A DNA stretch of 64,000 nucleotides from an uncultured Anaeroplasmataceae bacterium (GTDB lineage: Bacteria; Bacillota_I; Bacilli_A; Acholeplasmatales; Anaeroplasmataceae): positions 186,001-250,000 of the forward strand of contig CATKXV010000001.1 of NCBI GenBank assembly GCA_949840955.1. The letters are read 5' to 3'. Positions 22,037 to 47,278 of the stretch are shown here, in pieces; within the stretch, counting starts at the first letter, position 1; every line of letters starts with the position of its first letter. The notes under the pieces are model-generated. The model was given only the letters and a program-made list of their open reading frames with translations, ran no database searches and was not told where the DNA came from. The translations under genes were made by a program, and so were the position numbers.

Positions 22037-25000
22037 TTATTGTAAGAATAGGGCATAAAGCAGTGTACCTGTTGTATCCTTAGACAAGGTATGAGATCCA
22101 GCAGATAACTGGATGACAAGAATACCTGTTGAATCTACGGTATAGGATTTCCCATCTACTTTAATCTTTTTCCCAGCAGTAACATGTAGAGTTAATGTTC
22201 TAGCAATGTCTGTTTGGAATGTAACACTGGTTGAGGATTCCATCTTTAGGCCTTGAGCATAAGAGGTTCCTCCTATGGTTGCAGATGTTTTTCCATAGTT
22301 TCCTGATACACTGACAGATGGATCAGAAGGTGCCCCCGCAAAAGTACACTCTATTCTTGTATTCAAAAGCTCATCATATTTTGCTTTTGCGGCAGTTAAG
22401 ACATCGTAATTGGTTACTTTTGCTTTTTCCTCTGAATTTAAGGTAGCATACATAGCTTCTGCCTCATCAATTAAAGTCTTAGAATCTATTGTAACGGTTC
22501 CAATGGATTGGATCATCTTCATTACTAGAGAAACTCTTATATTAGAAATTTGATCTGCATTCGATACCTTTGCTTTCTCAGCTGCGGATAAAGCATCATA
22601 GGCAGCTAGTACCTCTTTCATAGATTGTGTACTATTGAGATCTACATTAGCTATCAGCTGTACAACATTTTCTACTACAAGTAAAGCATTTAATTCCTTT
22701 TCAGCATCAAGAAGCTTTTGTAGATTTGTTATTTGAGCCTTTTCTGCTGCACCTAAAGCATCATATTCAGCTCTTGCAGCTAAAATTGCATCCTTTTGCT
22801 CGATGGTAACTGGAGTTACAATTGCATTAATCTTATTGATACATGAGGTAATCGCATAGCTCTTAAATGCTGACTCAGCGTTAAGTAGTGTTTGATAATT
22901 CTCAATTTGTACAGTTGCATCCTCTTTTATAAGCTGATTATAGGCTGTTCTAGCCGCCATTATGGCAGATCCACTGGATTCAGTAACTGTACCAATTTGT
23001 TGAATTAGGCTGGTAACTTTTTCTTTTCCCAAGGTGATGTATTTTTGCCATGCTGTAGTAACGGTTGAATATGGAACTGTTACCTTAGCTTTATTTTCAG
23101 CACTTAATAAGCTATAGGCTGTTTTAGCTGCTACAATTGCTTGATAGCAGGTGCTGTTATATTCTATTGCTGCTGGAATTTTTTTAGCCTTCGCATCATA
23201 ATCTGCGATTTGCTCAGCTCCATCATCATGCTCTTGAATGGTTATCGAATTGATTGTCATATCCTTAAAGGTTCCTGGCGTTACGGTATTACTAACTCCT
23301 GGCTGGAAATTTTGAGATTGACAGATATAGGTTCCGGCCTTTAAGATTACAGTACCGCCTCCTGTTAGCATACATTCTCCTGCCTCATTTACAAGTACAC
23401 CCTCTGCTGTACCATAGCTTACGCTAACCTCAGCAGATTTACTTAAGGTAAAGGCATAGACTGTTTTACTGATTTTTCCAGGATTTAAAGTAGTTGGATA
23501 GGTGTCTACACGTACTGGAGTAACACTGCTTGGAAGAACAGAAATGTATTTCATTTCAACATCCTTCATAGAAATGTTTTGAGCTTTTCTTACACCCGTG
23601 AAGGCATAAATTGCTTTTCTTGCTTCTGTGATATTGGTTTGAAGCACATAATCTCCATTTGGAATATAGGATAAGGTAGCATTTGTATCAAAATCACTAT
23701 AGGTATTAGAGGTTGGAACCTTCTGATTTTTATCCTTTACAATGGTTCCACCCATCTCATTAATACAGCTTGAGAAGGAATCATTATAGCTCTTGATTGC
23801 TCCACTATCAACACGATGAGGACTCTTTACCATATAGAATAAGTTATATTCAGAGAAAATATAGGCATTGGCTCTTGTATTCATCGCAAAATCAGTTTGA
23901 CCCTCAAATACATTATTATACATATGGATATTGGCTGTACGAGATAATGGACCTCTTGCCTTACATAGCTTCCAATAGTTATGATGATAGGTTAAATTAT
24001 ATTGAATATTACTATCACTTGCACCAACTAAATTTGTCTTATGACAGCCCTCAAAATAATTATAGCTACAGGTTAGGTATTGACCTCTCTTGAAATCACA
24101 TGAGCCATCTCCCTCAGCCTTATCACTTTCTGCTGGTCCAGAAATGGATGGACAATAGAATTCATTGTTATGAATCCAGCATCTTTCAACACTTGCTGTT
24201 AGGGTACTTCCCTCCTGTACACCCTCCATACCAATGGCATCCTCAGGTGTATTAATGAATTTTAGGTTACGAACCTCAAAGCTTTTACCAAGCTCTGGAC
24301 CAGAGCTTTCAGCCATAAAGTGGAAGCCCCAGCCATCAATCGTGGCATCCTCTCCTACACCCTCTATGGTGATATCCTTACCAGATTTCATACGAGCCAT
24401 ATGTCCGTTATCTTTTGGAGTTCCACCCCAATCTAGGGAGTTAAATACGGTTAAGCCATTGATGAGTGGTGTACTGCTTGCTGCAAAGGAGGCTTGCTTA
24501 TATAAGCCACTATCGGATACACATCCAACAAAACGAATAACAAGCGGTATATTATCCTCGGCAAGCAATCGTAGTATGCCTTGGTTTGTATTGGCCTTAC
24601 CACCTTTAGCAGTTAAGCCTCCACCCACATCAGCACCTACGGAATTTAAAATATTTCCAATACCCACAACGGTAGTTCCCTTATGTGTAAGAGAAATTGT
24701 ATTTTTATTCTGATCGGTTACCCAAAGAACGATAGCATTTTCCTTTAATGCACCTGTATCATCGTATGCACCAACTCCTGCGGTATAATTGAAATGAGCA
24801 TATCCAGAGCGATCATATTCACCAACAACAAAGGTACAGCTAGAGCCCTTGGCTGTCTCATCATCCTTCGGATAAACAATAGCCTCATAGCTTCCAGCAG
24901 GAATGCCTAGAATATCTGCACGTAATACTCCATTTTCCATAGAACGAATATAAACATATTTATCATCTAGTACCTTAGGAGTAGAATTGTTTGAATTTCT

Positions 25001-28000
25001 TAAGGTAATGGTATACCCATTAGCTCCTGTGTATGGTCTAAAGGTGATGTATGCACCCTCAACCTGACCTACAGCACGAATTAGCTCTACAGCTCCTCGA
25101 TCAACAATTTGACCAGGACCAGCCTCAATATAATCTGAAGCCTCTGGATCCTTTTCCCATTTCGCATAAAGAATTGTATCCTTTTCAATAGGTAAATTGA
25201 AATCAAATTCTGTTAAATAGGTATTATCCTTATACCAGCCTGCAAAGATAAAGTTTGGCTTGGTAGGTGTATCTAGATTTGGAAGCTTAGATCCCTTCTT
25301 CAGCTCAAGAGGATCCATATTTGTATTTTCAAAGGTTACATAGACTGGCTTTTCCTCCCATTTGGCATAGATGGTGATGTTGTTCATAATTGGCTTTGTG
25401 AAATCATGCACCACTGTACACTCTGGGTCATCATACCAATCAATGAAGAAATAGCCTTCCTTGACTGGATCATTTGGAGCGGCAACCTTAAAGCCCTCAT
25501 TGACATCCTTAGATGGAATTACAGTACCTCCATTGGTTTCATAGGTTACTGTATATATTTTTAAGCTTGGATCAATAGGCTTTTCCTCCCATTTTGCATA
25601 TAAGGTAATATCCTGTTCTAGCTTTGTATTAAAATCAAATGGGGTTTGACATGTGCTATCTATGTACCAGCCCTTAAAGATATATCCGTCCTTAACTGGA
25701 GCTTCTGGCTCAGTAACAGTCTGCCATTTTGCAAGAATCACATCCTGAATATTAGAGCCATTGGCTGTATTGAAATGAACTGCTATTTCTACAACCTGAT
25801 TGTATTCATATAGGGTGAAAACCGTTATTTTTAAAGAATTCTGTGTTTTTAAACGATATACACCAGCCTCGAGCCCTTCTACAAGAGCACTAAAGCTACC
25901 CTTTGGTACGGCTGTACCTAATTCTTTAATCAATACTTCTTTTCCATCGATTACCTGATATAAGGTAACAACAGTGTTAGATGTCGTTGAACCACCTGTA
26001 CCAACAATTTTTACACTATTGCTAAATTTTCCTGTTACGGTAAAGTAAATATCCTTTCCTTGAGAATTTAGCATAGCAGCCTCTGATTTTGCACCAGTGG
26101 ATACCTTAAATTGACCAATTTCAAAATCAGCAGTTGTTTTGCCTGCAGAATCCTTTGGTGCTTTAGAGTTAAATTCACTAAATGGGAATTTAATTTCTAA
26201 ATCCTCTTCTGTCTGGTTTTTCTCCCAGCATGCATAAATTGTTGTATTAGAGGTAATAAGATCTGTCTCAAAGTTCCAAGGTGTTGTTCCATCCTTATCC
26301 TTAAACCACCCTAGGAAGGTGTGATTTGCTTTAATAGGATCTGCTGGCTTTACAGCTGTTCCATTAGCTGTTACTTTTTGATTATCGACCTTGCTTCCTG
26401 CTTGAGTATCAAAGGTTACGATATAGGTTGCCACAGTCCATTTTGCATATAAGGTTGTATCCTCTGTAATGACATCCTGATCAAAATTGAATTTTTCAGT
26501 CAAGTCACCATTTTCATCCTTAAACCAGCCTAAGAAGGTATAGCCTTCTCTTACTGGATCTGCTGGTTTTGAAATTTTACTACCAGAAGCAACGTTTTCT
26601 AAGGCAGGAACATCTGTACCACCCTTGGAGTTGAAGATAACTATAAAGGTATTTACCTCTGTAGATTGCTTTATCCATTTGGCATATAAATACATATTTT
26701 CTTCAATCTTGGTATTGATAAAGTCAAATTCATTATCAAAGCCTGCATCTCTATACCAGCCGACAAAAAGATACCCTTCTCTTGTTGGTGTCGTAGGTCG
26801 GATGGCAAAAGCTCCTGCTGGAACCTCCTGAGAAGGAACAATCGTACCACCATTGGATTCAAATTGTATTGTATATTTTTTTACATCCCATTTTGCATAT
26901 AAGGTTATGCTTTCTGTAATAACATCCTGATTGAAGTCAAATTTTTCTTTTAAGGTACCCTCGGTATCCTTAAACCAGCCTAAGAAGGTATAGCCTTCTC
27001 TTACTGGATCGGATGGCTTTGGAATCTTGCTTCCAATTGTAATATTTTCGTAGGAATCAACACTACTTCCACCCTTTGAATTGAAGATGACCTTAACCTT
27101 ATCCGTTTCAACAGGCTTAGCCTCCCATTTTGCATAAAGCGTGATGTCTGAGGTGATGACTGTGTTGATGAAATCAAATTCTTCTTTCAAGCCTTCATCC
27201 TTATACCAACCAATAAAGATAAATCCCGCTTGGGTTGGACTCTTTGGTCGGATGGCCTTTAGACCATGTGCAACCTCTAAAGAATCAACCTCAGTACCAC
27301 CATTGGATTCAAATTGTATTGTATACTTTTTTACATCCCATTTTGCATATAAGGTTATGCTTTCCTTTATCGTTTCAGTCACAAAATCAAAGGCTTCAAC
27401 CAATTCACCATCGGTATCCTTAAACCAGCCGACAAAGGTATAGCCCTCTCTAACTGGATCCGCAGGTCTAGCTATGGTAGAGCCTCCCAATACGCCATCT
27501 AAATCTGGAATATCAGATCCACCCTTTGAATTGAAGATAACCTTAAAACGATTTGCTTCTGTTGAGCTATCTGTCCATTTGGCATATAGGGTAATATCGG
27601 ATGAAATCGGTGTATTTACGAAATCAAAGGCATTCTCAAGCTCTGGTTCTTTATACCAGCCTGTAAAGATATACCCGTCCTTGGTTGGACTCGTTGGTCG
27701 ATTGGCCTTTCCGTTAGCCTCAACCAGCTGATTATTTACCTCAGTACCACCATTGGAATCAAAGGTTACTCTAAACCACTTGACTGTCCATTTGGCATAC
27801 AGGGTAATGTTTTTATAAAGTGCTTCCTTAAAATCCCATTCATTTTGGCAAGCCTCTTCCTTATACCAGCCTCCAAAGGATGCATTAGTTTTCTTAGGAT
27901 CAGTAGGCTTTTCTATGAGATTTCCTTCCTCAACAATCTGATTTGGAATGCTTCCAGCACCTTTTGTATCAAAGGAAACTGTGTATAGGTTATTCCATTT

Positions 28001-28297
28001 TGCATAAAGCGTCAAATCATCCTCAGGAATAAATTCCTCAAAATGATATTGATTTTCAAATGTAGATTCCATATACCAGTCTACAAAAACAGAATTTTCT
28101 TTTACAGGGCGTTCAGGCTGAACCACCTTTTCGCCCCGTTTAATTGTTTGAGGGGCAACCTCGCTCCCCCCTAGGGAATCAAACGTTATGAGAATATTTT
28201 CCTTTCCCTTGTCTGTCTTACAGCCTGTGGTTGTAAGCAAAATTCCAAAGGATAAAAATATGCATAACATCCCCATGAATATTTTTATTTTTTTCAT
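22037..28297 (-). CDS. Giant InlB-repeat lipoprotein with PL1 pectate-lyase-like domain and helical C-terminal repeats
   Basis: 2086 aa. A lipoprotein signal peptide ends at the lipobox LLTTTGC. Nine InlB/Listeria-Bacteroides (Flg_new) repeats cover ~30-690, each ending in (L/I)YAKW. A beta-sandwich, CBM-like domain follows (~695-835), then three more repeats (to ~1045), an Fn3-like domain (~1050-1160) and a PL1 parallel beta-helix (~1160-1590) with TYHHNYWKLCKARGPLSR and HMYNNVF. Then come about five FIVAR-like three-helix repeats (~1700-1985) and a C-terminal beta domain. No LPXTG is present; anchoring is by lipid. The ATG at 28297 has GGAGG; an in-frame TTG at 28309 is rejected. Likely binds and cleaves pectin outside the cell (inference). 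Confidence 0.9.
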   Translation of the reverse strand: MKKIKIFMGMLCIFLSFGILLTTTGCKTDKGKENILITFDSLGGSEVAPQTIKRGEKVVQPERPVKENSVFVDWYMESTFENQYHFEEFIPEDDLTLYAKWNNLYTVSFDTKGAGSIPNQIVEEGNLIEKPTDPKKTNASFGGWYKEEACQNEWDFKEALYKNITLYAKWTVKWFRVTFDSNGGTEVNNQLVEANGKANRPTSPTKDGYIFTGWYKEPELENAFDFVNTPISSDITLYAKWTDSSTEANRFKVIFNSKGGSDIPDLDGVLGGSTIARPADPVREGYTFVGWFKDTDGELVEAFDFVTETIKESITLYAKWDVKKYTIQFESNGGTEVDSLEVAHGLKAIRPKSPTQAGFIFIGWYKDEGLKEEFDFINTVITSDITLYAKWEAKPVETDKVKVIFNSKGGSSVDSYENITIGSKIPKPSDPVREGYTFLGWFKDTEGTLKEKFDFNQDVITESITLYAKWDVKKYTIQFESNGGTIVPSQEVPAGAFAIRPTTPTREGYLFVGWYRDAGFDNEFDFINTKIEENMYLYAKWIKQSTEVNTFIVIFNSKGGTDVPALENVASGSKISKPADPVREGYTFLGWFKDENGDLTEKFNFDQDVITEDTTLYAKWTVATYIVTFDTQAGSKVDNQKVTANGTAVKPADPIKANHTFLGWFKDKDGTTPWNFETDLITSNTTIYACWEKNQTEEDLEIKFPFSEFNSKAPKDSAGKTTADFEIGQFKVSTGAKSEAAMLNSQGKDIYFTVTGKFSNSVKIVGTGGSTTSNTVVTLYQVIDGKEVLIKELGTAVPKGSFSALVEGLEAGVYRLKTQNSLKITVFTLYEYNQVVEIAVHFNTANGSNIQDVILAKWQTVTEPEAPVKDGYIFKGWYIDSTCQTPFDFNTKLEQDITLYAKWEEKPIDPSLKIYTVTYETNGGTVIPSKDVNEGFKVAAPNDPVKEGYFFIDWYDDPECTVVHDFTKPIMNNITIYAKWEEKPVYVTFENTNMDPLELKKGSKLPNLDTPTKPNFIFAGWYKDNTYLTEFDFNLPIEKDTILYAKWEKDPEASDYIEAGPGQIVDRGAVELIRAVGQVEGAYITFRPYTGANGYTITLRNSNNSTPKVLDDKYVYIRSMENGVLRADILGIPAGSYEAIVYPKDDETAKGSSCTFVVGEYDRSGYAHFNYTAGVGAYDDTGALKENAIVLWVTDQNKNTISLTHKGTTVVGIGNILNSVGADVGGGLTAKGGKANTNQGILRLLAEDNIPLVIRFVGCVSDSGLYKQASFAASSTPLINGLTVFNSLDWGGTPKDNGHMARMKSGKDITIEGVGEDATIDGWGFHFMAESSGPELGKSFEVRNLKFINTPEDAIGMEGVQEGSTLTASVERCWIHNNEFYCPSISGPAESDKAEGDGSCDFKRGQYLTCSYNYFEGCHKTNLVGASDSNIQYNLTYHHNYWKLCKARGPLSRTANIHMYNNVFEGQTDFAMNTRANAYIFSEYNLFYMVKSPHRVDSGAIKSYNDSFSSCINEMGGTIVKDKNQKVPTSNTYSDFDTNATLSYIPNGDYVLQTNITEARKAIYAFTGVRKAQNISMKDVEMKYISVLPSSVTPVRVDTYPTTLNPGKISKTVYAFTLSKSAEVSVSYGTAEGVLVNEAGECMLTGGGTVILKAGTYICQSQNFQPGVSNTVTPGTFKDMTINSITIQEHDDGAEQIADYDAKAKKIPAAIEYNSTCYQAIVAAKTAYSLLSAENKAKVTVPYSTVTTAWQKYITLGKEKVTSLIQQIGTVTESSGSAIMAARTAYNQLIKEDATVQIENYQTLLNAESAFKSYAITSCINKINAIVTPVTIEQKDAILAARAEYDALGAAEKAQITNLQKLLDAEKELNALLVVENVVQLIANVDLNSTQSMKEVLAAYDALSAAEKAKVSNADQISNIRVSLVMKMIQSIGTVTIDSKTLIDEAEAMYATLNSEEKAKVTNYDVLTAAKAKYDELLNTRIECTFAGAPSDPSVSVSGNYGKTSATIGGTSYAQGLKMESSTSVTFQTDIARTLTLHVTAGKKIKVDGKSYTVDSTGILVIQLSAGSHTLSKDTTGTLLYALFLQ

Positions 28298-28318
28298 ACT
28301 TTCCTCCAACCGTAAGAA

Positions 28319-31300
28319 TTAGCTTTCTCCTAAAATTCTTACAAGTGTGGTTTTATAATTTAAAACCATCTGCTTTAATTCTGGAATAATACCATAATTT
28401 GTATCTTCCACTTCATTGTTAAATGTAAATTTCAAATCTCCCCCATTGATTCTTCCTGCATACCTCATAACCTTTTGTCTTGCAACCTCAGGAGAATCAA
28501 CTTCATATGAATAAAAGGTAGAGCTTGTATCAAAATTGTTATACGTTGTACCACCAGATAGGGTCATTACACTGCTTGGTAGCTTTTCATCACGTGAGGA
28601 AGCTAAATAAGCATCAAAGCTGGTAGCATTGGATTGATAATAAATAACTTCCTTTCCACCCTCAATATAATTTCCATAGGCTTTAATAATTCCACCAGTT
28701 TCACCACTAAAGGTTCCATCCCCCAATGCATCTGTTCCCTGTAGAGAGCTTAGCATTGGATTGTTGCAGTTTCTAAAGTAGTTGTTTTCTACAAAGGCAG
28801 AACCACCCATCGTAATTCCTACACCATATTTGGAATTGCCATCAAAGTAATTGTTATACACATGTACACTACAGGTACGAATTCTTGGGTGACGTGAATC
28901 AGAATGGTCATACCAGTTATGATGATAGGTAATATAATCCTCGGTTGCTTCACTCTTCATTCCCTGTAGATTACATTTACCAGAATCCCAGAAATGATTG
29001 TAGGCAGCTGTTATATATCTAGAATGCTTCTTAATATCTAAGGATCCATCTCCCTTGGCTTGATCAGAATCTCCTCCAGGAGCACCATAGAAGAAATCCA
29101 CATTATGAATCCATAGGTTACAATTGTTTGTATCAATTGAAATCCCATCATCCATGAAATTGATGATACCAAAATTACGCATTTCAACATTTCCTGAATT
29201 TCGAATCAGGAAGCCAAAGCCATTGATGGTTGCATCCTCTCCTACGCCCTCAAAGGTTATATTCATATTTTGGTAGCCCTTAGCTCCTTTGATTTGTAAT
29301 CCCTCTGCTGAGCTTGATATGTGGTCTAGATCAGAGCGCTTTATTTCTCCAATAATTCTAAAGTCTAAAATATCGGTAGATCCAGCCTTTTGCTTTGCGT
29401 CAATGATGGATTGAAGTCCAGATACCTCATTTCCTTGAACTGTAGCCTTCACTGTTTTCGCATTTTTGGCTGTAACATAAATAACCTGTGCTCCAGCTCT
29501 AAGGGTTCCATCATCATTATATGCACCTGAAGCTGTTTTTAGTGGAGAATCAGCAGCAAAAGCAAATCCACTTCTTGTGTGAGCTAAAACGGTTACATCC
29601 TCTATAGCTCCGTTTCTGAATTCATCTGTACCAAATACAGGAACAACCTTTAAGGTATAATTTCCCGCAGCAAGCCCTAAAACATCTGCACGATATTTTC
29701 CTGGATATTCTCTAATGAGCATCTTATCTAAAGAAACATATTTTGCATCAGCCTCTGTGGATTTTTTATAATATACATTGTAGGAGGTTGCCTCTGCAAC
29801 AGGCTTCCACTCCACATATGCTGTTTCTAAATCGCCAAGAGCTCGAATAACTTCAACATTGGATTTTTCATTCCATTTGGCATATAGAATGACATTCGCT
29901 TCTAATAGATCTCCAGCACTTGCCTTTTCTGTAAGCTCCTTATCATAATACCAACCTCCAAAGGATTTTTCAGAAGAGGTTAATTTTGGTAATTCAGGTA
30001 AAGCTGTGACTTTTTGAATCATTTCAATAGGATCAGCATATCCATTAGTTTCAAACTGTATAGAATAGGTAACCTGTTCTATCCATTTAGCATATAAGGT
30101 AATATCCTCATATACAGGTAAATCAAAATTATAGGCCTCTTGGAAGGATGAATCTGTGTACCAGCCTGCAAAGGTATAGCCTTCCTTTACTAAAGACGCT
30201 GGTGTTGGAAGCTTTTTGCCTTCCTGAATCTGCTTCTTTTCAAGTTGTGTGTCACAATCGGTTATAAAAAGAACGGTATAGGCCTTTACATTTGGATCAA
30301 GGGGCTCCTCCTCCCACTTAGCATATAAAATCAAATCAAATGTAATCGGTGTATTGAAATCAAAAGGAGTTGTATATAAGGAATTGGTATACCAGCCTTT
30401 AAAAATATAGCCCTCGTACACAGGATCTATAGGCTTTTCTACTACATTTCCTTCCTGTACAGAAACGATGTTCTCGCTCGTTCCATTTTGATAATTAAAC
30501 GATACTAAAAATTCATTTAAAACAATGGAATTGCTTTTTTCTGTAACAATAAAATTAGAAATTTTTAAGGACCTATCCGTCTTAATCACATAGGTACCCG
30601 CTTCTAAATCCATCTCAGTAAGCGTAATACTTTTCTTATAATCTACTCTTCCCAATTCCTTTACCAATACATTCTGTCCATCCACTACCTTATATAAGGT
30701 AATAATTGTTGTATTAGAGGTCGTACTATTTCCACTACCTCCTGTTCCAGTAAGGGTAAAGCTATTGCTTACCGTTCCCGATAAGACAATGGTAATTTCC
30801 TTTCCTTGTGTATTTAATTCTGAGGCTGTAGCCTTTACACCAGTTCCAACAGTAAAGATATCCATAGCTATTGGTACCGTAGTTTTATTATTTGAATCGA
30901 GCTTTCCTACAGTTAATCCATTAAACTTTGCAAAATCAAAAACAATTGTTTTTTCTTCAGCTACAGGTAGCTTTTCCCATTTGGCGTATAGGGTGAAATT
31001 TGTAGTAACAGGCTCACTAAATACATAGCTTGTTTGAAATAAGGAATCCTTAAACCAACCAATGAAGGTATACCCTTCTCTTATTGGAGTTGTAGGAGCT
31101 GAAAATGCTTTGCCTGCCTCTACCTTAAGTGATGATATTGGATTTCCTCCATTAACCTCAAAGGAAACCGTATAGGTAATCACAGGCTTAACTTCCTCTT
31201 CCCATTTTGCATAGAGTGTCATACTTTCTGTAACAACCTCTGTGTCAAAATCAAATTCGTCGACTAAGGCACCACCTGTATCCTTAAACCAGCCAACAAA

Positions 31301-32644
31301 GGTATAGCCCTCTCTTACTGGATTGTTCGGTTTTGTTATTTTAGAACCAGATACAACATGGGTAATCGGAGAGATTTCACTTCCTCCTTTACTATTAAAG
31401 GTTACCGTTATACTTGTAGGATTATCCTTTATCCATTTGGCATAAAGTACCATATCCTTAAGCACTATATCATTCACAAAATCAAACTCTAAGGTTTTTA
31501 ATGGATCAATATACCAGCCTCCAAAGATAAAGCCTTCCTTTGTAGGACTTTCTGGTCTTACAGCAGTTGTGCCATATTCTACAGTTTGAGATGATACCTC
31601 ACTTCCTCCATCACTATGAAAGGAGACATTGTAAGAATTTATATCCCATCTAGCATATAGAGTCATGCTTTCGGTAACAATTTCTGTATCAAAATCAAAT
31701 TTTTCTTTTAAGGTACCCCCTGTATCCTTAAACCAGCCTAAGAAGGTATAGCCTTCTCTTGTTGGATCCTCAGGCTTTGAAATCATAGATCCTACAGCAA
31801 CATTCTCATAAGCTGGAATACTACTTCCTCCCTTAGAATTAAAGACTACCTTTACTCTGTCCTCTTCTTCAGGCTTTTCTTCCCATTTTGCATAAAGAAC
31901 GATATCCTTTACAATCATGGTATTGATAAAATCAAATTCCTTTGTTAAAGCAGCATCCTTGTACCAACCAACAAAGATATATCCCTCTTTGGTTGGACTC
32001 TCAGGTCGTTCTGCCTCATGATGATATAAAATAGACTGATTTTTCACAGCAGAACCACCATTGGATTCAAAGGTTACCTGATAGGTTTCTATCTGCCATT
32101 TTGCATAAAGCGTCAAATCCTTAAGAACATCCTTTTGAAAATTAAATTCTATTTTGAATTCCTCATCCTCATACCAGCCTAAAAATTGGTATCCTTTTTT
32201 TGTAGGATTCTCTGGCTGGACTACTTTTCCATTTTCATTAATGGTTTGATTCTTTATTGCTGTACCTCCATCCGTGTGGAAGGTAATTGTATATGTTATA
32301 GGAGTTGAATCCTCCTTTTTTTCCCATTTCGCATATAATACCATATTGTACATGACAATATCTGTTTCAAAATTCCATTCATTTTGGCAGGTTGTTTCCT
32401 TGAACCAGCCTTTAAAAATGTAACCATCCTTTTGGGGATCGGAAGGCTTCGTCACTTTTTTTCCCTTTTCAATTGTTTGACTATCAATCGTCTGAGCACC
32501 CTTAGGATCAAATGTTACTGTAAATTTCTCTGCCTCTACAACCGGTGGATTAGGATCCTTAGGCCCATCTCCCGTCTTACAAGAAGCTAAAGCAAATACA
32601 GCAAAGGCTGTTCCTAGTGCCATGAAAATTTTTTTCTTTCTCAT
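28319..32644 (-). CDS. InlB-repeat lipoprotein with PL1 pectate lyase domain
   Basis: 1441 aa. Signal peptide MRKKKIFMALGTAFAVFALA followed by the lipobox Cys (LASC). Seven InlB repeats (~38-555), a CBM-like domain (~556-705) that is clearly paralogous to that of the downstream protein, three more repeats (to ~925), an Fn3-like domain and a PL1 beta-helix (~1025-1360). The catalytic-region motif ITYHHNWYDHSDSRHPRIR and HVYNNYF is canonical, so activity as a pectate lyase is more likely here than in the downstream paralogue. The ribosome binding site is weak. Middle gene of the operon, 21 nt before the next start. Confidence 0.92.
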   Translation of the reverse strand: MRKKKIFMALGTAFAVFALASCKTGDGPKDPNPPVVEAEKFTVTFDPKGAQTIDSQTIEKGKKVTKPSDPQKDGYIFKGWFKETTCQNEWNFETDIVMYNMVLYAKWEKKEDSTPITYTITFHTDGGTAIKNQTINENGKVVQPENPTKKGYQFLGWYEDEEFKIEFNFQKDVLKDLTLYAKWQIETYQVTFESNGGSAVKNQSILYHHEAERPESPTKEGYIFVGWYKDAALTKEFDFINTMIVKDIVLYAKWEEKPEEEDRVKVVFNSKGGSSIPAYENVAVGSMISKPEDPTREGYTFLGWFKDTGGTLKEKFDFDTEIVTESMTLYARWDINSYNVSFHSDGGSEVSSQTVEYGTTAVRPESPTKEGFIFGGWYIDPLKTLEFDFVNDIVLKDMVLYAKWIKDNPTSITVTFNSKGGSEISPITHVVSGSKITKPNNPVREGYTFVGWFKDTGGALVDEFDFDTEVVTESMTLYAKWEEEVKPVITYTVSFEVNGGNPISSLKVEAGKAFSAPTTPIREGYTFIGWFKDSLFQTSYVFSEPVTTNFTLYAKWEKLPVAEEKTIVFDFAKFNGLTVGKLDSNNKTTVPIAMDIFTVGTGVKATASELNTQGKEITIVLSGTVSNSFTLTGTGGSGNSTTSNTTIITLYKVVDGQNVLVKELGRVDYKKSITLTEMDLEAGTYVIKTDRSLKISNFIVTEKSNSIVLNEFLVSFNYQNGTSENIVSVQEGNVVEKPIDPVYEGYIFKGWYTNSLYTTPFDFNTPITFDLILYAKWEEEPLDPNVKAYTVLFITDCDTQLEKKQIQEGKKLPTPASLVKEGYTFAGWYTDSSFQEAYNFDLPVYEDITLYAKWIEQVTYSIQFETNGYADPIEMIQKVTALPELPKLTSSEKSFGGWYYDKELTEKASAGDLLEANVILYAKWNEKSNVEVIRALGDLETAYVEWKPVAEATSYNVYYKKSTEADAKYVSLDKMLIREYPGKYRADVLGLAAGNYTLKVVPVFGTDEFRNGAIEDVTVLAHTRSGFAFAADSPLKTASGAYNDDGTLRAGAQVIYVTAKNAKTVKATVQGNEVSGLQSIIDAKQKAGSTDILDFRIIGEIKRSDLDHISSSAEGLQIKGAKGYQNMNITFEGVGEDATINGFGFLIRNSGNVEMRNFGIINFMDDGISIDTNNCNLWIHNVDFFYGAPGGDSDQAKGDGSLDIKKHSRYITAAYNHFWDSGKCNLQGMKSEATEDYITYHHNWYDHSDSRHPRIRTCSVHVYNNYFDGNSKYGVGITMGGSAFVENNYFRNCNNPMLSSLQGTDALGDGTFSGETGGIIKAYGNYIEGGKEVIYYQSNATSFDAYLASSRDEKLPSSVMTLSGGTTYNNFDTSSTFYSYEVDSPEVARQKVMRYAGRINGGDLKFTFNNEVEDTNYGIIPELKQMVLNYKTTLVRILGES

Positions 32645-32740: not shown

Positions 32741-35700
32741 TTAAGCATTTGGAGTTACAGTAGCCGTTGTACTATAAAAATTCAATCTACTTGTACTAGG
32801 AGTAAAAGATGCAGTTTGACCAGCGGTTAATGTAATTTCTATTTGTACTTTATTTTTAGCAACTGAAATACTTTGATTTGCAATAGCAACATAGCTTCCA
32901 GATACTTTGATTTGACCTGTTCCAGTCACCTTTATAGACCCATTTTTAGAAGTTAAACCGCCACTATCTCCTATGGAAAGTTCAATCACAAAAGACATTG
33001 ATTTAACATTTTCACCAGCCGTAACTGTTATTATTCTACTACTACCTGTAGCCTCTAAAGCACCTGCTGTATTGTAACTAAAATTTCCTTCACTAGTGAT
33101 TGTAAAGTACTCTTTTTCACTTTTTAAATTTAAAACTGCTTTAGATAGATTTGGATAGGATGTAGCCAATAGTTGGTCACTTTCAGGCATTATTTCTTCA
33201 AATTTAGCTGTTAGAGTCACTGTTGTTCCTGCTGTTACTGCTGCAAAATCAAATTCAACATCTCCTTCAGTAAACCATCCAACAAATCTGTATCCCTCTT
33301 TAACCGGATTGCTAGGAGCATCGATTCCTTGACTTCCTTCAGCAACATAATATTCTTTCATTGTTGAAGCGCCATCAACAACATATGTAATAGAAACGTT
33401 TGATGTAGCATATTTAGGTAACATTACTAATTTTGTTCCAGATGGATATGCTTTGCTTTCAAATCTTACTTCTTCTTCATCTACAATATGATACCAATAT
33501 AAGAATACACCCTCCGTTGAACTAGGTCCTTCTACGGCTTCAATTACATCAAAGTAATGATATTGGATTGGGTCAGAGGTCTCTCCCCATTGAACAGAAA
33601 CATCCTTTGATGCCTTAGATGCATCTATTGTTGCATCTATACCACATAATAATAGGTTACCACCAGATGTGTTTGTATTTTTTGCATAAACTGTTACAAC
33701 ATCACCAGCATTTAACTTTTCAATGGTTAATTTTTTTGAAACTCCTGAAAGCTCAACAGCTGGATTATCATTAATAGCATAGAATGTGCTTCCACTTCTT
33801 TCCTTTGCTCCTGTACTATCTCTTAAAGTTACATATATATTTACATTTACAACATTTTCTTTAAAAGTAATGCAATAAGGATTAGCAGAGTTATCTAGCT
33901 TACTACCTACAGGAGTACGAATTACAGATTCAAAACTTTCTCCCTCAAAAGTAACTCCCTGGAATGGAGAACCAAAATTATTGTTTGTATCTACATAATA
34001 AGCTTCTCCTGTTATATTAATATCAAAGAAATTTGTTTGAGCTCTTTCATCTGCTACAAAAGGCTCACCAGCAATTAATGAGGTACCATCCTCTGTTGTA
34101 TCTGCAATATAATCTGCTCCACGCCACTGAATTGTTTTTTCAAAGCCTTCAATATCTTCTACATCAACTAGAATTACCATATCTTCATAAACGGCAACCT
34201 TATCTTCACTTGCTATTGGTGCATAATTGCCTTCTGCATCCATAACATGAACAGCTAGAACATTTTGAGCTGTCACATGGACATCAGCTAAGGTGAATGT
34301 TTCACCATATTTACGTGTGAAAGTGTCAAGCTTACCTTCTATAGAAATCGTATAGGCTGTATTCTTTAATTCTGCGACTACTGCATCAATTGATTCTTTT
34401 GCAGAAGTAAATGCAGCTAATAGGTCAGATGAATTTGCATTTTCCTTAGCTAAAACTTCCTTAATTCCAGTAGCACCTTCTAAAACCTTATTATCTAAGG
34501 TAGTAGCAAAGTCGGAAGAAACAAATGGTAATTCAGCTTTTACCTCTTGAGCATAGGTTCCTAATTCCTTCACATAATCATAGCATGAAATCACTAGAGT
34601 TAATCCATTTCTTGCTGTACGATAGGTAGCGTTAAGAACTGCCTTTCCACTGGTTAAAGCATTCATTTGCTCTAACCCCTTTGTATAGGCAGAGGTTAAA
34701 GCTTGATATTCCTCACTTACTTCCTCATAGTTTTCGATTAAGGATTCATAATAAGCTGTATAGGCATCTAATAACTCTGTCTTTAATTCTGCAAAGGTGG
34801 TTTTATATGTTTGTAGGAACGTATCAATATAATTTTCAGCCTCTGTAATTTCTACCTGTATTTTAGAAATATCGGAAACTGCGTTTATATTATCCTCACG
34901 GCTACGTAGAATATCATTTAATTCACGAATAATAACATTCTTATCATAATATTCAGGATCACCCTCAGGTACTTCACAATCTGGGATATTTTCTAAGCTA
35001 CGATCAGTTACCTTATAATCTCTAATGTGCTTTGTCATTTCAGATTTAGCTGAAGCTAGTAATTCTTCGTTTGTACTACAATTTGCAATAGAGGTTGTTG
35101 CTTTAGCAAGCTCTGCCTCAATTAATGCCTTAACATCAAGATAGGTTTGACCTTCCTTTAGGGTAGCCACTGCCTCAATAGCAACAACACCACCATCATA
35201 AGCAATCTTATAGGTTGACTTATTATTGTAGGTCTTAGAAGCTGCTGTACCATCATCATTCTTAAAGGTCAAAGTAACATCTGTTGTAAATGCAGTTGGA
35301 CCTCCATCAACTAAAGCTAAGTCAGCTAACGCTTTGTTTTTAAGAGTTACAATTGCTACCTCATCCTGCTCAACCATAGAAATATTCTCAGTACCTAAAG
35401 CTAAAGCTTGATCTACCTCTTCTATCGTTTTCGCATTCATAATGTTATTTTCTGCTTCCTCTAAAAGCTCATTTAGTGCATCTATATTTAAGGTATATAG
35501 ACTCTTATCTACTGCATTGATTTCAGCTAAGGCAGCTTCCTTGCTTTCTCTTAATGCAGTTGCTTCTATCGTCTCTACAGCCTTCATATCAAGAATAGCC
35601 TGATCTAAAAGTCCTTGTAGAAGTGCTTTATCCTCTGCTGTGTTAATAAGCTCATAGGCTTCATTATAAATATTTTCTAAAGCCTCCCAATTTGCTTCAT

Positions 35701-38419
35701 CATATTCTAAAGAATCATAGGCTTGGTAAGCTTCATCCAATTGACTTAAAATTTTGATTTGAGCTTCTTCTAAAGTTAATGGTTCATTCACTAAGGCAAT
35801 ATTATCTAAAGACAATCTCTTAGCTGCTGAATTACTAGAAACAAATTGTACACCAATTACTTCCTTTACAGATAATTCAACATCCGTTACAAATGCCTCA
35901 CCATTAATTAGAATATTGGCTAGGCCTGTTTCAAAATCAAATTCAAAATAGATTCGAAGTGTTGTTACCTCTGTAATATTAATTTCAGTATCACCAAGAA
36001 TGAATTCCTTTGATTCATCTAAACGATATTTCACTAAATTATTATCAAAACGGATACCTAGAACTTCCTTTTTATTGGAGCCATAAAATTGAATAGGGGT
36101 CCAAGAATTTCCTGCATCAATGGTTCTTACATTCACATAGCCCTTAAGAATGCCATCGAGCTTACCAAAATCTAATACAAGCTTAGTAGCTCCATTCATT
36201 GAAGGATCATCTATCAATTCTGCTCTATTGTTTCCATTCGCATCTTGTCTAATCACAACATAGTTTGTATCATAGGTTACAGCCTCTTCTGGATTCTTTG
36301 AATTCTTTGCGAAGGCTCCATAGACACCTTTAGTTCCCCAAACACCATCCCATTCAGGTAGCTTACTATCCTTATCATAGCCAACAAAGGTTTCATTTAA
36401 AATTAAATTTTCGTCTTGGATTAATTCACCATAGAGTGTATCTGCTGTACAGAATACCTTTGAAGAAATGTCTGTACCCTCAACGGTTGCAGTGATCACA
36501 ATTTGTTCTGTACCCTGAGAAAGCATACGAACCTCAGCTTCTAAACCTAATTCATCTGTAGGAGTAACCTCTGCTACTGTTGGATCTGAAGACTTCCATA
36601 TGATTTTAACATTGGTTGCATCAAGAGGTGTAGGGATAACGCTTAAGATTTCACTTGTATGGTTTGGAGTTAATGTGATTCGGTCGACATCTCCTTCTCC
36701 AACCCTCACACTGATGCTAGTTACAGGTACAGCCTTCTTTTCAACTATAATTTTACAGGTTGAGGTAAGTCCCTTATGTGTTGCTGTTATTGTAACCTCT
36801 CCATCAGAAATTGCAGTAACTAGACCATTTTCATCAACTACAGCAATATCCTCATTGGAGGACGTCCATACAATTTCCTTATTTAATATATTTTCAGGAG
36901 TGAAAACTACATTCAACTGAATTGTATCATTAACTAATAAGGTAATTTGAGATGGGGAAACCTGAATATGTGTAGCCTCAGTTTCTGTCCAATGGGCATA
37001 TAAGGTTAAATTAGAAGAAATTGAGGTTTCCTCTAGATTAACTAAAGTACCACCCTCCTCTTCAGTAAACCAACCTACAAACGTATATTGATCCTTAAAA
37101 GGATTTTGTGGAGCAACTACTAAATTTCCATATTGAACATCCTGCTCATCTAGTTTGGTTCCATCTACATAGAAGACAACCTTATAGGTATTGATAACCC
37201 ATTTTGCATGAATCGTTGTATCCTGAGTAATAACATCCTTTTCAAAATCCCATTGATTTTGACATGAAATTTCTTTATACCAACCAGCAAAGGTATAGCC
37301 ATCTTTTGTTGGAGCTAAAGGAGCTGTAGCATAATTCATATACTCAACTTCTTGAGCAGCTATAGAAGTTCCACCATAGGTTGCAAAGCTAACCTGGTAT
37401 TGATTTGCAGACCATTTTGCATAAAGAGTCATACTTTCTGTAACAAGGTCCGTATCAAAATGGAATTCTTCTGTCAAAGTACCATTGGTATCCTTAAACC
37501 AGCCAACAAAGGTATAGCCTTCTCTTGTTGGATCCTCAGGTCTTTGGATTGTAGTACCTACAGGAACATTATCATAAGGAGCAACAGGGCTACCTTCCTT
37601 TGAATTAAAGATAACCTTTACTTTATCTCCGGCTTCAGGCTTTGCCTCCCATTTGGCATAAAGCGTAATATCCTTAGTAATAAGCGTATTTACAAAATCA
37701 AAGGCAGTCTTTAGCTCAGCATCCTTATACCAGCCTACAAAAATAAACTGATCCTTTGTAGGACTTGTAGGACGAGTAGCCTTTTCATTTTCCTTTATGG
37801 TTTGAGAAGCAACCTCAGTACCTCCATTGGAATTAAAGGATAGGGTATAATATACTACTTTTTTCTCCCATTTGGCATATAGGGTTACATCCTTCGTTAC
37901 TGTTTCTGTTTCAAAATTCCAAGCATTATTACATTCTGGATCCTTAAACCAACCAACAAAGGTATATTTATCCTTTGTAGGATCAGTAGGCTTCTTAACC
38001 TTTTCATTTGCTTTAATGCTTTGATTCTCTATTGTACTCCCACCATTTGTATTAAATACGACTGTATATGTAATAGGAGCTGGAGTATCCTTCTTTTCCC
38101 ATTTTGCGTATAGGGTTACATTACCCATCACAGTATCCGTTTCAAAATCCCACTTCGTTTTACAGGTGGATTCCTTATACCAGCCCATAAACGTGTAGCC
38201 TTCTTTCTTTGGATCTGTTGGTTTTGTTGCCTTTTTCCCTTTTTCAATTGCTTGGCTTGCAATTGCATCTGCACCCTGAGTATCAAATGACACAGTATAT
38301 TTCTCTTCTTCCACTACAGGTGGATTTGGCTTTTCTGGTTCTTTTTCTGTTTTACAGGAAGCCAAGGCAAATACTGCAAGCACTGTACCGAGTGCTAAGA
38401 AAACTTTTTTCTTTCTCAT
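32741..38419 (-). CDS. Giant InlB-repeat surface lipoprotein with Ig-like, lectin-like and helical domains (no lyase domain)
   Basis: 1892 aa, first gene of the operon. Signal peptide MRKKKVFLALGTVLAVFALA with lipobox LASC, almost identical to the next gene's. Six InlB repeats (~36-478), two bacterial Ig-like (Big_2) domains (~478-660; IVWTSSNEDIAVVDENGLV is diagnostic), a LamG/CBM-like beta domain (~660-875), a long helical region (~876-1360) of FIVAR-like and coiled segments, beta-rich domains, a seventh InlB repeat (~1690-1745) and a C-terminal beta domain. No catalytic motif is recognised, so it is probably an adhesin or substrate-binding partner of the two lyases (inference). Confidence 0.88.
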   Translation of the reverse strand: MRKKKVFLALGTVLAVFALASCKTEKEPEKPNPPVVEEEKYTVSFDTQGADAIASQAIEKGKKATKPTDPKKEGYTFMGWYKESTCKTKWDFETDTVMGNVTLYAKWEKKDTPAPITYTVVFNTNGGSTIENQSIKANEKVKKPTDPTKDKYTFVGWFKDPECNNAWNFETETVTKDVTLYAKWEKKVVYYTLSFNSNGGTEVASQTIKENEKATRPTSPTKDQFIFVGWYKDAELKTAFDFVNTLITKDITLYAKWEAKPEAGDKVKVIFNSKEGSPVAPYDNVPVGTTIQRPEDPTREGYTFVGWFKDTNGTLTEEFHFDTDLVTESMTLYAKWSANQYQVSFATYGGTSIAAQEVEYMNYATAPLAPTKDGYTFAGWYKEISCQNQWDFEKDVITQDTTIHAKWVINTYKVVFYVDGTKLDEQDVQYGNLVVAPQNPFKDQYTFVGWFTEEEGGTLVNLEETSISSNLTLYAHWTETEATHIQVSPSQITLLVNDTIQLNVVFTPENILNKEIVWTSSNEDIAVVDENGLVTAISDGEVTITATHKGLTSTCKIIVEKKAVPVTSISVRVGEGDVDRITLTPNHTSEILSVIPTPLDATNVKIIWKSSDPTVAEVTPTDELGLEAEVRMLSQGTEQIVITATVEGTDISSKVFCTADTLYGELIQDENLILNETFVGYDKDSKLPEWDGVWGTKGVYGAFAKNSKNPEEAVTYDTNYVVIRQDANGNNRAELIDDPSMNGATKLVLDFGKLDGILKGYVNVRTIDAGNSWTPIQFYGSNKKEVLGIRFDNNLVKYRLDESKEFILGDTEINITEVTTLRIYFEFDFETGLANILINGEAFVTDVELSVKEVIGVQFVSSNSAAKRLSLDNIALVNEPLTLEEAQIKILSQLDEAYQAYDSLEYDEANWEALENIYNEAYELINTAEDKALLQGLLDQAILDMKAVETIEATALRESKEAALAEINAVDKSLYTLNIDALNELLEEAENNIMNAKTIEEVDQALALGTENISMVEQDEVAIVTLKNKALADLALVDGGPTAFTTDVTLTFKNDDGTAASKTYNNKSTYKIAYDGGVVAIEAVATLKEGQTYLDVKALIEAELAKATTSIANCSTNEELLASAKSEMTKHIRDYKVTDRSLENIPDCEVPEGDPEYYDKNVIIRELNDILRSREDNINAVSDISKIQVEITEAENYIDTFLQTYKTTFAELKTELLDAYTAYYESLIENYEEVSEEYQALTSAYTKGLEQMNALTSGKAVLNATYRTARNGLTLVISCYDYVKELGTYAQEVKAELPFVSSDFATTLDNKVLEGATGIKEVLAKENANSSDLLAAFTSAKESIDAVVAELKNTAYTISIEGKLDTFTRKYGETFTLADVHVTAQNVLAVHVMDAEGNYAPIASEDKVAVYEDMVILVDVEDIEGFEKTIQWRGADYIADTTEDGTSLIAGEPFVADERAQTNFFDINITGEAYYVDTNNNFGSPFQGVTFEGESFESVIRTPVGSKLDNSANPYCITFKENVVNVNIYVTLRDSTGAKERSGSTFYAINDNPAVELSGVSKKLTIEKLNAGDVVTVYAKNTNTSGGNLLLCGIDATIDASKASKDVSVQWGETSDPIQYHYFDVIEAVEGPSSTEGVFLYWYHIVDEEEVRFESKAYPSGTKLVMLPKYATSNVSITYVVDGASTMKEYYVAEGSQGIDAPSNPVKEGYRFVGWFTEGDVEFDFAAVTAGTTVTLTAKFEEIMPESDQLLATSYPNLSKAVLNLKSEKEYFTITSEGNFSYNTAGALEATGSSRIITVTAGENVKSMSFVIELSIGDSGGLTSKNGSIKVTGTGQIKVSGSYVAIANQSISVAKNKVQIEITLTAGQTASFTPSTSRLNFYSTTATVTPNA

Positions 38420-38444: not shown

Positions 38445-38474
38445 TAGAAAGCGCTTTAAGTAAGCGTTTTACAT
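38445..38474 (-). promoter_or_regulatory. Two adjacent CcpA/LacI-family operator-like boxes
   Basis: GAAAGCGCTTT (38447-38457) and GTAAGCGTTTTAC (38460-38472) each carry a central CG within a partial palindrome, as in catabolite-responsive elements or LacI-family operators. They lie just after the predicted transcription start, a position suited to repression. Outer bases differ from the strict cre consensus, so the regulator may be CcpA or a local LacI-type protein. Confidence 0.55.
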
Positions 38475-38481
38475 AGTATAT

Positions 38482-38511
38482 ATTATACCCCCCCCCATAT
38501 AGTTTTGTCAA
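38482..38511 (-). promoter_or_regulatory. Promoter of the lipoprotein operon with a G9 tract in its spacer
   Basis: Reading leftward: TTGACA (38511-38506), an 18-nt spacer whose last nine bases are all G (C9 on the plus strand, 38488-38496), then TATAAT (38487-38482). Both boxes are perfect consensus. Spacer length would change with slippage of the homopolymer, moving between good and poor promoter geometry. Confidence 0.85.
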
Positions 38512-38532: not shown

Positions 38533-38566
38533 GAAAAAATAAAAGGCTTAACTTTCATCAAGCCTT
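38533..38566 (-). terminator. Terminator of the thiT operon
   Basis: Leftward AAGGCTT / AAGCCTT stem overlapping the stop at 38558, followed by TTATTTTTT. Confidence 0.7.
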
Positions 38567-38992
38567 CTTTTTTGTATCAGAAATATAACTAAAAAGTAAG
38601 TATGCAATCAAAACCAATCCTAGGATGCCTATATACAGGTACTCTTGATTCTCTATGAAGGGCTTTTGCTTAGCTAATGCCTTAAAGAAAACACCCAAAG
38701 GATAGAAGGTAAGCAGTGTTGCTATAACACTAAAGGAAGCATAATAGGGAAGTGTCAAATCCTTATTCTTTTTATAGCCATAGATACTATAAATTCCATA
38801 GACAAGAAGTGAGCATCCACATAGGAAATAAACGATCATATCCATATCAAGCGAAATATCCGTTCCATAACCATCATCATAGATTTCAAAGCTGAAGCAA
38901 AACTCTATAATACATATGACCATAAAAAGGACAGCAAATAAAACAATCATTCCTCTTTTTAAAAGCTCACTATTTGATTTTAGACTCTTCAA
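38558..38992 (-). CDS. Small four-TM membrane protein co-transcribed with thiT
   Basis: 144 aa, no recognised family. Four hydrophobic segments are visible (MIVLFAVLFMVICIIEF, MIVYFLCGCSLLVYGIYSIY, YYASFSVIATLLTFYPLGVF, YIGILGLVLIAYLLFSY) with a basic tail. The start is a TTG overlapping the end of thiT by 23 nt, with GGAGG 9 nt upstream; an ATG at 38950 is the alternative. The shared transcript suggests a role linked to thiamine uptake, or simple read-through; undecided. Confidence 0.75.
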   Translation of the reverse strand: MKSLKSNSELLKRGMIVLFAVLFMVICIIEFCFSFEIYDDGYGTDISLDMDMIVYFLCGCSLLVYGIYSIYGYKKNKDLTLPYYASFSVIATLLTFYPLGVFFKALAKQKPFIENQEYLYIGILGLVLIAYLLFSYISDTKKKA

Positions 38993-39641
38993 TTTCTTTA
39001 ACCTCCTTCTTTTCTGTTTCCAGAGTTTCTAAAAACTGGGGATAAAATTTTGCAATCAAAAGCATGGTTCCCGTACAAATGATGAGATTTGGAATACAAT
39101 AGGCACCATTATATAGGAAGGAATAGAGCCAGGATGTATCTGCAATATTCCAAAAGCTAGCCCCCTGATTTAACCAAAATACGCCACCTGCAACAACATG
39201 ACAGGTGTATTTGAGAAGTCCAGCTATACCACAGCCTACGACAATCCATAAGCATTTTAAGGATTTTTTTTCATTTTTCTTATAAAGACTAGCAAAAAAT
39301 CCAGCAAATCCGACAACAGTATAGGCTAAAATATAATCCAGCATTATCTGCAAAAACGGACCCATAACCTGTAAAAATGAACTTTCAAATGAGGAAGCAT
39401 TAATGACATATATTCCTCCAAGCATTTGTACAAGGCTTACAATTAGACCACAAAGTATCCCTGGAAATAGTCCTCTTCTATAACTGATTAAGAGGATGGG
39501 TACCATCGCAAAGCCTATGGATCCTCCACTAGCAAATACACCTCGAAAGATTCCTCCCTGAAGTGCATCGAGTGCAAAGGCTAAAGCAGCAAAGATCGCT
39601 ACCTCTGCAAGCACTCTTGTTGAAAATTTTTGTTTTTTCAT
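38970..39641 (-). CDS. thiT: ECF transporter S component for thiamine, ThiT-like
   Basis: 223 aa with six membrane segments. The ThiT signature regions ALAFALDALQGGIF, GFAMVPILLISYRRGLFPGILCGL and KYTCHVVAGGVFW are present; substrate specificity is supported by the TPP riboswitch directly upstream. It needs the shared ECF energising module (EcfA, EcfA', EcfT), which is not in this window. The ATG at 39641 has GGAG 6 nt upstream. An ATG at 39716 would lie inside the riboswitch and is rejected. Confidence 0.93.
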   Translation of the reverse strand: MKKQKFSTRVLAEVAIFAALAFALDALQGGIFRGVFASGGSIGFAMVPILLISYRRGLFPGILCGLIVSLVQMLGGIYVINASSFESSFLQVMGPFLQIMLDYILAYTVVGFAGFFASLYKKNEKKSLKCLWIVVGCGIAGLLKYTCHVVAGGVFWLNQGASFWNIADTSWLYSFLYNGAYCIPNLIICTGTMLLIAKFYPQFLETLETEKKEVKEIEESKIK

Positions 39642-39656
39642 TTTGTTCTCCTTTAA

Positions 39657-39680
39657 TAAAAAAATGTCCGCTAGGACATG
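39657..39680 (-). terminator. Riboswitch-controlled terminator upstream of thiT
   Basis: Leftward ATGTCC TAGC GGACAT hairpin followed by seven T residues, between the TPP aptamer and the thiT ribosome binding site: the expression platform for transcription attenuation. Confidence 0.85.
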
Positions 39681-39717
39681 CATAAAAAAGAATATAAATG
39701 AGATGAAATTCCTCATA

Positions 39718-39796
39718 TTATTCCCTACGCTAGCATTACCTAGATCAGGTTAAGGGTAGATCCTTATCCTCTCAGGCTCATCGCCTCCCCTTAATA
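39718..39796 (-). promoter_or_regulatory. TPP (thiamine pyrophosphate) riboswitch aptamer
   Basis: Reading leftward, the THI-box landmarks appear in order: GGGGAGGCGATGAGCCTGAG (pyrimidine-sensing arm with CTGAGA), ACCCTTAACCTGATC, and TAATGCTAGCGTAGGGA, closing the P1 stem. It precedes thiT with a terminator in between, so TPP binding should stop transcription. Confidence 0.95.
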
Positions 39797-39887
39797 TGAC
39801 AACTCCATTATAAACCAAGCCTTGCAAAAAAGCAATATTATTCAAATGAAATTCATTCCTTCCTTCATATTTTGTCTTTTTAAAATT

Positions 39888-46939: not shown

Positions 46940-47278
46940 AGCAGTCTATAAGCCATGTTCTGTACCTAAAAAATTAGGTGGTAACTATTTATCTGCAATT
47001 TCTTGCCTCTATGATAGCTTCATTTTGCCTCATAAAGCTCCCCTACCAAAATTTGGGTTTCTAGCTTGAGGGGTTTACCAACGTTTCATTTCTATATTTC
47101 TATAGAACTCGTCTCTGTGGCACGTTATAGAATACACCATATCCATCCGGACTTAGGCTTCTTCTGCCGTCATATTTCTATGCCTTAGCTTATGGTTTAG
47201 CTAAGCACAAACACTACAATCATCTCAGATTGTGCTAGCATGGACTTTCCTAACCAGTGGCTCAGTTACCCAACTGCT
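46940..47278 (-). ncRNA. rnpB: RNase P RNA (type-B-like)
   Basis: Conserved landmarks are in order: GAAAGTCCATGCT (J/CR-I region), GACGGCAGAA, GTGCCACAGAGACGA, GTAAACCCCTC then AAACCCAAATTTTGGTAGG, and ACAGAACATGGCTTATAGA near the end. P1 pairs AGCAGT (5') with ACTGCT (3'). The AAACCCAAATTTTGG stretch is identical to the B. subtilis type-B RNA. About 339 nt, shorter than B. subtilis by about 60 nt. Confidence 0.96.

Follow-up and report, generated by a model that had tools for sequence, protein, structure and literature searches.

A candidate phase-variable promoter with a poly-G spacer upstream of a giant lipoprotein operon in an uncultured Anaeroplasmataceae bacterium

Does a run of nine G residues between the two boxes of a promoter switch the genes below it on and off, or is it a fixed, passive or accidental feature of the sequence? 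The question is raised by positions 38,482 to 38,511 of the window, by which we mean the whole 64-kb stretch of DNA analysed here. On the minus strand, 38511-38482 reads TTGACA-AAACTATAT-GGGGGGGGG-TATAAT, with a -35/-10 spacer of 18 nt. The perfect -35 box TTGACA (38506..38511) is followed by a constant 9-nt spacer half, AAACTATAT (38497..38505), which recurs at the same offset in the similar form AAANTATNT in three other copies in this genome. Next comes the G9 tract proposed as a slippage switch (38488..38496; C9 on the plus strand), and the perfect -10 box TATAAT (38482..38487) abuts it. Together the two boxes are a 12/12 match to the consensus and form the top promoter-like site across 21-40 kb of the window. 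Perfect boxes, 18-nt spacing and nine G next to the -10 box were what the original prediction had described, and the sequence agrees with it at every position. Just 5' of the promoter, an intrinsic-terminator-like hairpin (38541..38568, minus strand) closes off the preceding gene, and the first ATG lies 62 nt past the -10 box; the promoter therefore serves the operon below. A switch in the leader RNA was also considered and is unsupported, the folding of the leader being unremarkable (z -0.73).

That operon consists of three minus-strand genes with intergenic gaps of 96 and 9 nt, and all three proteins start with a signal peptide and lipobox. The first gene (32741..38419) encodes a 1892-aa lipoprotein with lipobox LASC, seven Flg_new/InlB B-repeats and a Big_2 domain. 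The second (28319..32644) encodes a 1441-aa lipoprotein with ten Flg_new repeats and Pectate_lyase_4, and the third (22037..28309) a 2090-aa lipoprotein with twelve Flg_new repeats, Pectate_lyase_4 and CBM77. The lipoprotein signals, together with the Pectate_lyase_4 and CBM77 domains, suggest a surface-bound pectin-degrading set. The operon had been predicted to encode three very large surface proteins of the kind typically targeted by such switches. They are indeed giant lipoproteins, but they are not simply antigens, since two of them are pectate lyases.

We consider it very probable, judging from the DNA, that this is a phase-variable promoter of the porA type, switched through its spacer. 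In such a promoter, slipped-strand mispairing at replication would add Gs to the G9 tract or remove them from it. The G count would set the -35/-10 spacing around the value best suited to the housekeeping sigma factor, with 8 G giving 17 bp, 9 giving 18, 10 giving 19 and 11 giving 20. The shift in spacing would move transcription of the three pectin-degrading lipoproteins between high and low levels, reversibly and in sub-populations. The assembled 18-bp state would be on or moderately on, the 17-bp state (one deletion) maximal, and the 20-bp state (two insertions) nearly off. That the tract slips within the population here, and that transcription responds to this, is what we infer from the features described below. 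MutS is encoded in all 11 genomes of the genus and should slow single-base slippage, so that the switching rate is probably modest.

In order to judge whether the tract could have arisen by chance, we compared G runs with expectation over the 2.10-Mb genome. No other G or C run in the window exceeds 6 nt. Its length had been called rare for an AT-rich genome, and as far as the run itself is concerned this did not hold, since 5 runs of G>=9 were observed and 3.9 were expected under a first-order Markov model. What is unusual is the placement. Perfect TTGACA-N14..22-TATAAT pairs number only 55 in the whole genome, and four of the five long G runs lie inside such pairs, each abutting TATAAT; the remaining 51 pairs, which are without poly-G, have a spacer mode of 17 nt. 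A chance homopolymer would explain the near-expected count, but not the position, the recurrence, the results of the reversed and poly-C controls or the length distribution given below, and we regard it as extremely improbable. The fifth run, a G10 at C1:145733-145742 (L191:5734), stands right after a GTG where an LPG_synthase_TM-like gene begins, about 30 nt 3' of a perfect promoter, and could be a separate switch in a 5'-UTR or at a start codon.

The three further copies of the TTGACAAAANTATNT-Gn-TATAAT promoter in this genome carry tracts of G9, G11 and G9, so that the genome would hold at least four such switches, the locus studied here among them, as part of a family-wide set. One G9 promoter, on contig C3, lies before the genes of a pair of giant lipoproteins with InlB repeats. 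The other (C2:13598-13627) precedes an operon encoding HD/RyR-like, TIR and ParA-like proteins and two large proteins of no assigned family. This operon looks like a conflict or defence system from its domains, and PADLOC gave no clear system match for it. The operon below the G11 promoter (C2:33064-33095) encodes an MkoA-like SF1 helicase (PADLOC E 1e-87) together with ClpB-like AAA and radical-SAM proteins and a DEDDh exonuclease, and is possibly a Mokosh-related defence system. Within the genus, the MkoA-like gene is confined to two species, between which it shows 40% amino-acid identity; in each of them a poly-G promoter precedes it, with G11 in one and G8 in the other. The view of surface proteins as the targets thus needs to be widened, as they are not the whole set and two sister sites precede phage-defence-like operons.

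The form TTGACA-N9-Gn-TATAAT was found at 20 sites in 7 of the 11 genomes of the genus. Across the order, 160 genomes gave 32 poly-G promoter sites, all within Anaeroplasmataceae (genera g1 and g4 and one g2 genome), and the 105 genomes of the other families gave 0 sites. Neither the reversed pattern, used as a control, nor a poly-C version of the spacer had any match in the 55 genomes of the family. Four g2 matches (L041-L044), which precede HMA-domain (copper-ATPase-like) genes, were left out of the switch count. Their form TTGACA-ACCCTATGGGGGTA-TATAAT (ACCCTAT-GGGGGTA) is a palindromic spacer operator and not a slippage tract. A wider scan of genome contigs returned at least 119 stretches with the same signature, mainly in Clostridia and Bacilli metagenome-assembled genomes; Saccharibacteria, Streptobacillus and Helicobacter are also among the matches listed beyond the family. 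The IMG/VR scan gave three matches, one of them with the half-palindrome GGGGGGGTA. On one IMG/VR viral contig (L237), two promoters read TTGACA-..-GGGGGG(G)TA-TATAAT.

We then considered tract length, which bears on the reading that the poly-G spacer is a fixed element, serving a tuned promoter strength, a DNA shape or the operator of a regulator in a surface and defence regulon that does not switch. Several features would fit such an element: the four sites of this genome have a similar left spacer half, TTGACAAAANTATNT, the tracts of the family always abut or almost abut TATAAT, and the promoter strand carries G alone and never C. However, many members have an unrelated left half (AAAAACGCT, TTTTGCCT, GGAATTTAT), the copies range over tracts of 8-11, homologues with otherwise identical flanks differ in length, and a protein site is not expected to tolerate such variation. 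The family tracts of G8-G11 correspond to spacers of 17-20 bp, and G9 at our locus, with 18 bp, has a slippage-prone length at which gains and losses would shift the spacing across the 16-19 bp optimum. Among the matches listed, 157 distinct sites had tract lengths of 7 (15 sites), 8 (30), 9 (64), 10 (28) and 11 (14). Composition would give a roughly four-fold drop per added G, whereas these lengths peak at 9.

The closest comparison is that of genomes G047 and G048, whose promoters are identical from 120 nt upstream through the -10 box save for G8 in one and G6 in the other, within a locus 97.8% identical across 5 kb. In the G047 leader (L244; L050 on G047:C2) about 37 nt, RBS and start codon included, are duplicated in tandem, a feature absent from G048. 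Homologous promoter pairs were taken from the top of an all-against-all flank comparison, made at a loose threshold that yields mostly chance alignments, and several of them were checked with blastn; unequal tracts among paralogous or related promoters were 10/9 (L136), 11/12 (L073), 9/10 (L085/L117) and 9/11 (L069/L115), and equal tracts were seen in two homologous promoters common to G002 and G004 (10/10 and 8/8) and in L171. Each species is represented by one metagenome-assembled genome, and the 38488-38496 tract is known at a single length, G9. Given these length differences, we judge the fixed element unlikely.

Another reading takes the G tract to be a neutral or locked passenger and lets a CcpA-like protein and its cre site set the expression of the operon in practice. 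A palindrome, AAAGCGCTTT, which resembles a cre site (a CcpA-type operator), lies 3' of the -10 box at 38448..38457 on the minus strand, and each genome of the genus encodes one CcpA-like LacI-family protein (about 290 bits, below the equivalog cut-off). The homologous operon in genome G003 (43% identity) has a similar cre-like site after a plain 17-bp promoter, TTGACA-17-TATACT, that is without a G tract. The G003 operon suggests that the tract is an added layer and that the operon can do without switching. Interrupted tracts (GAGGGGGG, GGGAGGGG, GGGGGAGGG) with 17-18 nt spacing precede secreted-protein genes at other loci. In G001:C51, G005:C3:58961 and G042:C16 the poly-G spacer before such a gene is broken by one A, and from their sequence these spacers look like switches locked by mutation. 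The tract at our locus is uninterrupted, however; slippage in a spacer necessarily alters spacing, and neutral drift would not place long G runs in perfect promoters in four cases out of five. We therefore think it quite improbable that the tract is a mere passenger, while the cre-like operator probably adds carbon-source control to the phase-variable promoter.

The genes downstream of poly-G promoters are biased toward secreted products. With signal peptides called by a hydrophobicity heuristic and starts picked automatically, so that the fractions are approximate, a signal-peptide-like N-terminus followed 21 of 29 poly-G sites of the family (72%) compared with 6 of 29 ordinary perfect promoters of the same genus (21%; p=1.7e-4). 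Outside the family, the corresponding values among the matches listed were 74/105 (70%) versus 2/20 (10%) in controls. Considering also the lipoproteins and the MkoA-like and TIR/RyR operons, the targets are mostly surface-exposed or host- and phage-interaction genes. The architecture, the recurrence, this target bias and the tract-length differences among homologous promoters are direct observations. The recurrence in genome, genus and family, the length differences between homologues, the length peak at 9 and the secreted targets support the original prediction of a promoter-spacer switch.

The mechanism itself has precedents. In Neisseria, porA, fetA and opc undergo phase switching via homopolymeric G or C tracts between the -35 and -10 boxes (PMC2791445), with transcriptional switches of 12G in porA, 11C in opc and 9C in fetA (PMC4235727). 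The parallel to the porA and opc spacers had been drawn beforehand and agrees with this literature (PMC2791445; PMC4235727). As in the poly-G porA and the poly-C opc and fetA of Neisseria meningitidis, the homopolymer here is located in the spacer, between the -35 and -10 boxes of the lipoprotein operon promoter, its length changes the spacing, several loci carry it and the targets lie at the surface. Unlike the neisserial set, the present one belongs to an unrelated Gram-positive/Mollicutes lineage and to unrelated genes, has perfect consensus hexamers, is poly-G only within the family, includes pectate lyases and defence-like operons among its targets, and is known from sequence alone. Closer in lineage, the Vlp lipoprotein promoters of Mycoplasma hyorhinis are phase-variable and have a poly-A spacer. 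They come from a relative among the Mollicutes, the class to which NCBI assigns our lineage, and share with our locus lipoprotein products and a homopolymer in the promoter region, but the Vlp proteins are small repetitive antigens, whereas giant InlB-repeat enzymes and poly-G are found here, and no relation in sequence was seen. The tract, being G9, does not fit a poly-A switch of the Vlp type. Gut Bacteroides switch their glycan-use loci by invertible promoters (PMC11868660). Stochastic switching of carbohydrate-use and surface genes in gut commensals would be common to both; recombinase-driven DNA inversion operates there, in contrast to the replication slippage in a spacer that is proposed here.

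In the open-access literature we found no link between Anaeroplasmataceae or Acholeplasmatales and promoter-spacer phase variation. On that literature, the mechanism is already known; what appears new is the lineage that hosts it, the pectinase and defence-like genes among its targets and how many loci an uncultured gut group devotes to it. A 2025 review described multi-locus phase variation as apparently restricted to pathogens, and counted this pattern, which biased databases may have produced, among the major open questions (PMC11868660). An uncultured gut lineage that is not a known pathogen and has a family-wide set of promoter switches would bear directly on that question, as would the stretches with the same signature, over 100 of them, in the genomes of other groups. 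We lean towards the broader view that poly-G spacers are a widespread and repeatedly evolved form of multi-locus phase variation, in uncultured gut Anaeroplasmataceae and many other, mostly Bacillota, lineages, stochastically controlling surface proteins, enzymes that degrade plant polysaccharides and phage-defence operons in bacteria that are not known pathogens. If switching is true, pectin degradation and phage defence would be bet-hedged in the gut. The signature TTGACA-N9-Gn-TATAAT is simple enough for immediate testing in existing metagenome reads.

Two structured RNAs were also located on the minus strand of the window: a TPP riboswitch (Rfam RF00059, 59.8 bits) at 39704-39801, 5' of the gene at 38970-39716, and an RNase P class B RNA (RF00011) at 46944-47277.
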